NCBI GenBank assembly: GCA_009760855.2
Contig: WPIO01000001.1
Span: forward strand, 24,321,001-24,385,000
From: Cristatella mucedo
Lineage: Eukaryota; Bryozoa; Phylactolaemata; Cristatellidae
Reading direction: 5' to 3'
DNA length: 64,000 nucleotides
The number at the start of each line of letters is the position of its first letter. Within the stretch, counting starts at the first letter, position 1. The position numbers were made by a program, and so were the translations under genes. This document shows positions 17,848 through 27,272 of this stretch, piece by piece. The notes under the pieces are model-generated. The model was not told the origin of the DNA. It did not search any database and saw only the letters and a program-made list of their open reading frames with translations.

Positions 17848-27272
<9,425 letters not shown>

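Follow-up and report, generated by a model that had tools for sequence, protein, structure and literature searches.

The FERM protein Expanded of Drosophila binds Yorkie through three C-terminal PPxY motifs (PMC10120405). It also binds Slimb/β-TrCP through the sequence 452-TSGIVS-457, directly behind the FERM domain, and this site sets the turnover of Expanded downstream of Crumbs and casein kinase 1 (PMC6768662). FRMD6, in contrast, is described as lacking the PPxY-bearing C-terminal domain, and Angiomotin (AMOT) has been proposed as the mammalian counterpart of the tail of Expanded, the YAP-binding PPxY role being assigned to it (PMC4019981). Phylogenetic tracing by Bossuyt et al. 2014, as cited in a later paper, confines the C-terminal region of Expanded to arthropods, and the absence of AMOT from Neodiptera is cited in the same place (PMC4962007). 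According to a survey of 24 metazoans, expanded was seemingly lost in Cnidaria (PMC3620549). A contrary statement is found in a review, which places PPxY in both the fly and the mammalian forms of Expanded without giving a sequence (PMC6558396). Apart from that statement, a literature search covering few subscription journals yielded no report of a PPxY motif in an FRMD6/Expanded protein from outside the arthropods. The accessible parts of a study of premetazoan Hippo signaling (PMC7035326) and of the 24-metazoan survey (PMC3620549), as well as those of papers on Hydra, LC8 and Fat, contained no PPxY data on Expanded. On the arthropod-only view of the C-terminus, a PPxY-bearing Expanded would be derived and not ancestral.

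We analyzed a stretch of 64,000 nucleotides of the genome of the bryozoan Cristatella mucedo (hereafter, the window), for which a preliminary description was at hand. Splice sites and similarity to FERM domains, read by eye and checked by script, gave an FRMD6/Expanded-like gene with 11 predicted coding exons, running from 27272 to 17848 and encoding 968 residues (Table 1). GT-AG borders were found at all 10 introns, and the joined exons form one open reading frame ending in a stop codon; the splicing of this 968-residue model is a prediction from sequence, its least certain parts being the start codon at 27272 and the limits of exon 3. Exon 10 of the preliminary description keeps its number in the rebuilt model. 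Only the frame of the PPxY motif, one of six, is stop-free across exon 10, for which the probability by chance is approximately 1e-4 on the basis of base composition. Since intron 10, at 252 nt, is a multiple of three and is open in the frame of the motif, as represented by an open reading frame of 683 residues that spans it, the PPxY would be kept even if intron 10 were retained.

The whole 572-Mb genome was searched with a query of 357 residues, which gave 11 matches. Exon-by-exon reading assigned 6 of these to the exons of the gene itself, with identities of 89-98%, the shortfall from full identity presumably being due to match ends that run into introns. The other 5 matches were distant pieces with identities of 23-33% (best E 8.4e-5). 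No second FRMD6/Expanded-like gene was found in this search, and the gene is apparently single-copy within its reach. Two other sources of the motif were discarded. A reading on the wrong strand or in the wrong frame was ruled out by the in-frame position of the motif on the minus strand and in the sole stop-free frame of exon 10, and membership of the PPxY exon in another gene was ruled out by the in-frame joins at both of its junctions and the lack of a second copy.

Table 1. Positions of the features described in the text. Positions are those of the window unless a contig is given.
Feature	Place in gene or protein	Position	Strand	Basis or remark
FRMD6/Expanded-like gene, coding part		17848..27272	-	11 predicted exons, 968 aa
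FERM_N	residues 15-68, exons 1-3	23794..27230	-	PF09379, E 2.9e-7, 30.7 bits (cut-off 22.7)
FERM_M	residues 104-218, exons 4-6	21892..22979	-	PF00373, E 1.3e-19, 71.1 bits (cut-off 23.8)
FERM_C-like region	residues 240-316	21229..21828	-	PF09380, E 0.0045, 17.8 bits, under the cut-off of 23
Juxta-FERM motif DRKKYRESY	residues 347-355, split by intron 8	20782..21138	-	aligned with KKQYRESY of human FRMD6 (provisional sequence)
TSGVVS, putative Slimb/β-TrCP phosphodegron	residues 406-411	20614..20631	-	match to fly TSGIVS
Exon 10, low-complexity tail exon		18601..19739	-	1 of 6 frames stop-free
HRRQAS, LATS/Warts consensus match	residues 545-550	19357..19374	-	HxRxxS
PPPPSY, with PPxY motif PPSY (19036-19047, residues 654-657)	exon 10	19036..19053	-	in frame
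Exon 11, C-terminus and stop		17848..18348	-	protein ends -RLMV
tRNA-Glu (TTC)		62348..62419	-	Rfam and ARAGORN agree
Angiomotin-like gene		contig C98, ~277168-289289	+	Angiomotin_C match and PPPPEYP frame by eye

The predicted protein begins with a three-lobed FERM body, of which FERM_N and FERM_M exceeded the Pfam cut-offs and FERM_C was matched below its cut-off. The closest solved structures by sequence were FERM domains, with Merlin as the best (E 1.3e-12). When the 968-residue protein was aligned with a provisional human FRMD6 sequence, not drawn from a database record, 103 of 358 positions were identical (E 4e-36, in a one-sequence database). With this provisional FRMD6 as the query, the joined protein scored 119.5 bits, as compared with 52.1 bits for the next FERM open reading frame of the genome; the pool for this comparison consisted of reading frames of at least 40 residues from 8 of the 24 genomic FERM matches, one of the 8 being the FRMD6/Expanded-like gene itself. 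Taken by itself, the FERM_M exon reached 51.0 bits with the provisional FRMD6 and did not exceed the other frame. The stretch RKKYRESYI aligned with KKQYRESYI of the provisional human sequence. Near the other end of the protein, IAGLC (18211-18225, minus strand, exon 11) and its neighbours resemble a C-terminal stretch of the provisional human sequence with a score that was reached by 22 of 500 shuffles, a likeness to FRMD6 that is only suggestive at the level of sequence. The FERM body looks to be of the FRMD6/Expanded type, in line with its reading as FRMD6 in the preliminary description.

Vertebrate FRMD6/Willin, judged by the provisional human sequence, shares with the bryozoan protein the FERM body, a KYRESY-type juxta-FERM motif, a TSG-type motif behind the FERM domain (TSGVES) and a hydrophobic C-terminal end. 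The provisional human FRMD6 sequence contains no PPxY. The bryozoan protein departs from the vertebrate type in the PPSY of its tail, FRMD6 being reported to lack PPxY (PMC4019981), and in its length of 968 residues versus 614 (PMC4962007). With Drosophila Expanded it has in common the FERM domain, a TSG-x-V-S degron motif right behind it (TSGIVS in the fly, PMC6768662), a long tail and a PPxY within that tail. However, there is one PPxY in its 968 residues as compared with three in the fly protein (PMC10120405), which is also longer, at 1429 residues (PMC4962007). The preliminary description had seen an FRMD6 and an Expanded-type PPxY united in a single protein. The FERM body and the PPxY do lie in the same predicted protein, but an Expanded-type wiring is not supported, given one motif instead of three and a tail that is otherwise low-complexity.

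The β-TrCP consensus TSGxxS was found directly after the FERM body, as TSGVVS. This hexapeptide pairs in the alignment with TSGVES of the provisional human FRMD6 sequence. We estimated how often such a motif arises by chance. The pattern TSG[IVLM][IVLM]S, which was picked post hoc, was present in 0.01% of the shuffled versions of the 100 residues behind the FERM body and in 0.15% of whole-protein shuffles; for the loose pattern [DT]SGxxS, the values were 1.4% and 8.6%, respectively. The fly sequence and the provisional human sequence suggest that TSGxxS behind the FERM domain may be a mark of the FRMD6/Expanded family, and we regard TSGVVS as a stronger signature of Expanded/FRMD6 than the PPxY. 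TSGVVS did not figure in the account of the protein given by the preliminary description. The protein also contains a match, HRRQAS, to the LATS/Warts consensus HxRxxS; this match is weak because 37% of the shuffled protein copies contained HxRxx[ST].

The tail motif PPPPSY, which the preliminary description had placed at 19036 to 19053, was confirmed on the minus strand and in frame. It occupies residues 652-657, and its PPSY is the single PPxY of the whole protein. The tail of 545 residues is low-complexity, with 89 Ala, 66 Ser and 46 Pro, and contains six tyrosines. To estimate the chance level, each region was shuffled 20,000 times, and equally many first-order Markov copies were generated. 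At least one PPxY appeared in 3.0% of the shuffles and 4.9% of the Markov copies of exon 10, in 4.0% and 6.9% of those of the tail, and in 9.9% and 19.7% of those of the whole protein. The occurrence of PPxY in the tail is thus weakly above chance. One possible explanation for the motif is that it arose by chance, or is private to the lineage, in a tail that is rich in Ala, Ser and Pro and evolves fast, and that it has no WW partner in the cell. We regard this as a serious candidate, with somewhat less than an even chance of being right. The low complexity of the tail speaks for it, as do the 3-7% of such tails in which a PPxY is expected and the roughly 1,500 PPxY motifs found in more than 1,000 human proteins (PMC6744271). 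It is less easily reconciled with the fact that, with just six tyrosines in the tail, one falls exactly into a canonical four-proline PY context.

The binding properties of single motifs are relevant here. Single PY motifs are weak binders; PPSY can nevertheless serve within a WW ligand, as represented by a Dendrin peptide with two motifs, PPPY followed by PPSY, which was measured with the tandem WW domains of KIBRA and MAGI3 (PMC6744271). The high-affinity mode of KIBRA requires two PY motifs spaced two residues apart, with the consensus phi-phi-x-Y-x-x-psi-P-x-Y (PMC6744271). PPSY does not fit this tandem consensus, as Leu, and not Tyr, stands six residues before its tyrosine.

We then considered the Hippo partners encoded elsewhere in the genome. 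Angiomotin_C gave one match, on contig C98 (E 3.3e-5, 31.8 bits, cut-off 23.5), and reading frames in its vicinity include coiled-coil segments that presumably correspond to those of human AMOT. AMOT is a coiled-coil protein without a FERM domain, and it is encoded here by a gene of its own. A frame with WRPPPPEYPGS lies approximately 11 kb upstream of the Angiomotin_C match and was taken by eye as a candidate AMOT exon; judged from the sequence, it is likely to belong to AMOT, though it stands unjoined to the coiled-coil exons. Two further plus-strand frames in the same 40 kb also hold PPxY. The candidate PPPPEYP exon near the Angiomotin_C match recalls the YAP-binding PPxY motifs of mammalian AMOT (PMC4019981). 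The idea that the PPxY protein of the window is the sole YAP tether for want of Angiomotin was ruled out by the match on C98. Angiomotin had been left out of the argument of the preliminary description.

The genome gave 35 WW matches, 20 of which were read together with their loci. By comparison with provisional human sequences, we take one to be WW2 of YAP/Yorkie, one to be WW1 of KIBRA and one to be that of Salvador. In the YAP frame, the end of WW1 precedes WW2 behind an acceptor-like site. Four WW domains clustered on contig C518 look like those of a NEDD4-type ligase.

The last of these bears on the proposal that PPSY recruits a NEDD4-type ubiquitin ligase, and not YAP, and helps to set the stability of the protein together with the TSGVVS degron. 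The cluster is NEDD4-like, by its WW domains alone, and PPxY is the ligand class of the NEDD4 family; but position Y+3 holds Ala, where the extended preference PPxYxxL has Leu, and we consider this proposal unlikely. The YAP gene, with its WW2 and the end of WW1, bears on a different alternative, in which PPSY would truly bind Yorkie/YAP and share its origin with the PPxY motifs of fly Expanded, the Expanded of the protostome ancestor having tethered Yorkie alongside Angiomotin. The protein family and the position in the C-terminal tail are those of fly Expanded, the degron match hints at Expanded-type features outside flies, a PPxY arises by chance in only the 3-7% of tails given above, and the review cited above puts PPxY in fly and mammalian Expanded (PMC6558396). 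These points have to be set against the one motif versus three, the weak binding of single PY motifs (PMC6744271), the cited tracing of the Expanded C-terminus to arthropods only (PMC4962007) and an AMOT with a likely PPxY in the same genome. Weighing both sides, we regard homology to the Yorkie sites of the fly as improbable.

We prefer the explanation, which we judge to be moderately probable, that the gene is an apparently single-copy orthologue of FRMD6/Expanded with TSGVVS-mediated, degron-like control, in which PPSY is at most a weak WW dock, the tethering of YAP falling mainly to Angiomotin. The three alternatives described above concern the role of the motif alone and overlap with this explanation as to the identity of the gene. 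Its sequence-level part is borne out by the predicted protein and the genome, namely, an FRMD6-like FERM body, TSGVVS behind it and a long tail of low complexity in which a single PPxY stands, together with partner WW domains and an Angiomotin-like gene elsewhere. According to the preferred explanation, the FERM body would hold the protein at the apical membrane or junction. Phosphorylated TSGVVS would lead to destruction by SCF-β-TrCP/Slimb, and polarity cues would in this way set the level of the protein. PPSY would be at most a weak single dock, perhaps adding avidity, for a WW protein such as YAP, KIBRA, Salvador or a NEDD4-type ligase, and Angiomotin would be the main direct tether of YAP.

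Several other features of the window and the genome were recorded. A long AG/TC microsatellite with 94.5 four-base copies lies at 23250-23627, within intron 3 of the FRMD6/Expanded-like gene, and similar frames reading SLSLSL/ERERER are found throughout the window as well as close to AMOT. Intron 2 holds a tandem repeat (24313-24408) with 4.8 copies of a 20-bp unit. Reverse-transcriptase-like (LINE-type) fragments were noticed by eye at 46796-47389 (minus strand), 61211-61612 (plus strand) and 31672-32043 (minus strand), and related pieces recur near AMOT and at another locus of the genome. No Pfam match was obtained for the first and third of these fragments or for a reading frame overlapping 61211-61612 in another frame. 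Ten open reading frames of the window besides those of the gene were without a Pfam match. On the mitochondrial contig C688 (21,008 bases), a block of approximately 2.1 kb is repeated in tandem, with the same frames and tRNAs at 11632 and 13747. In the mitochondrial COX1, 11 TGA codons are read as Trp, and 5 AGA and 3 AGG codons stand at places usually occupied by Ser and 2 AAA codons at places usually occupied by Lys. This usage agrees with the invertebrate mitochondrial code (table 5), which is also that of arthropods, and disagrees with the codes of cnidarians and sponges, of echinoderms and flatworms, and of vertebrates; a few other groups with similar codes may fit as well. Searches of the genome for Chitin_bind_4, Hemocyanin_M and molluscan haemocyanin gave no match; these searches were weak, their controls being also silent. 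With moderate confidence, the code and the missing arthropod families point to a protostome-grade animal outside the arthropods; in an arthropod, a PPxY in Expanded would be nothing remarkable.

The preliminary description had further proposed that a protein of this kind represents the ancestral Hippo wiring, before the vertebrate change. This proposal found no support in our data, in view of one PPxY versus three, the arthropod-only tracing as cited, and the presence of an AMOT-like gene. In particular, a state preceding the vertebrate change does not follow, because the AMOT-based tethering of YAP that is ascribed to mammals seems to be in place already. PPSY may contradict the confinement of the Expanded C-terminus to arthropods, it may have been gained independently, or it may be a product of chance; we place most weight on chance or on a weak lineage-private site. 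It would take a fairly long shot for the following history to be true, in which the Expanded/FRMD6 of the protostome ancestor carried both a β-TrCP degron and a WW-binding PPxY, and early animals tethered YAP through Expanded and Angiomotin in parallel; arthropods would then have multiplied the motifs of Expanded, flies would subsequently have lost Angiomotin, and vertebrates would have lost the motif of Expanded.

At present, the PPxY finding is a modest lead. If the motif proves to be conserved, the published view of the Yorkie-binding tail of Expanded as an arthropod invention would need to be qualified, and FRMD6/Expanded and Angiomotin would both carry YAP-docking motifs in one animal. 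If the degron match holds, the polarity-controlled destruction of Expanded would predate the arthropods.
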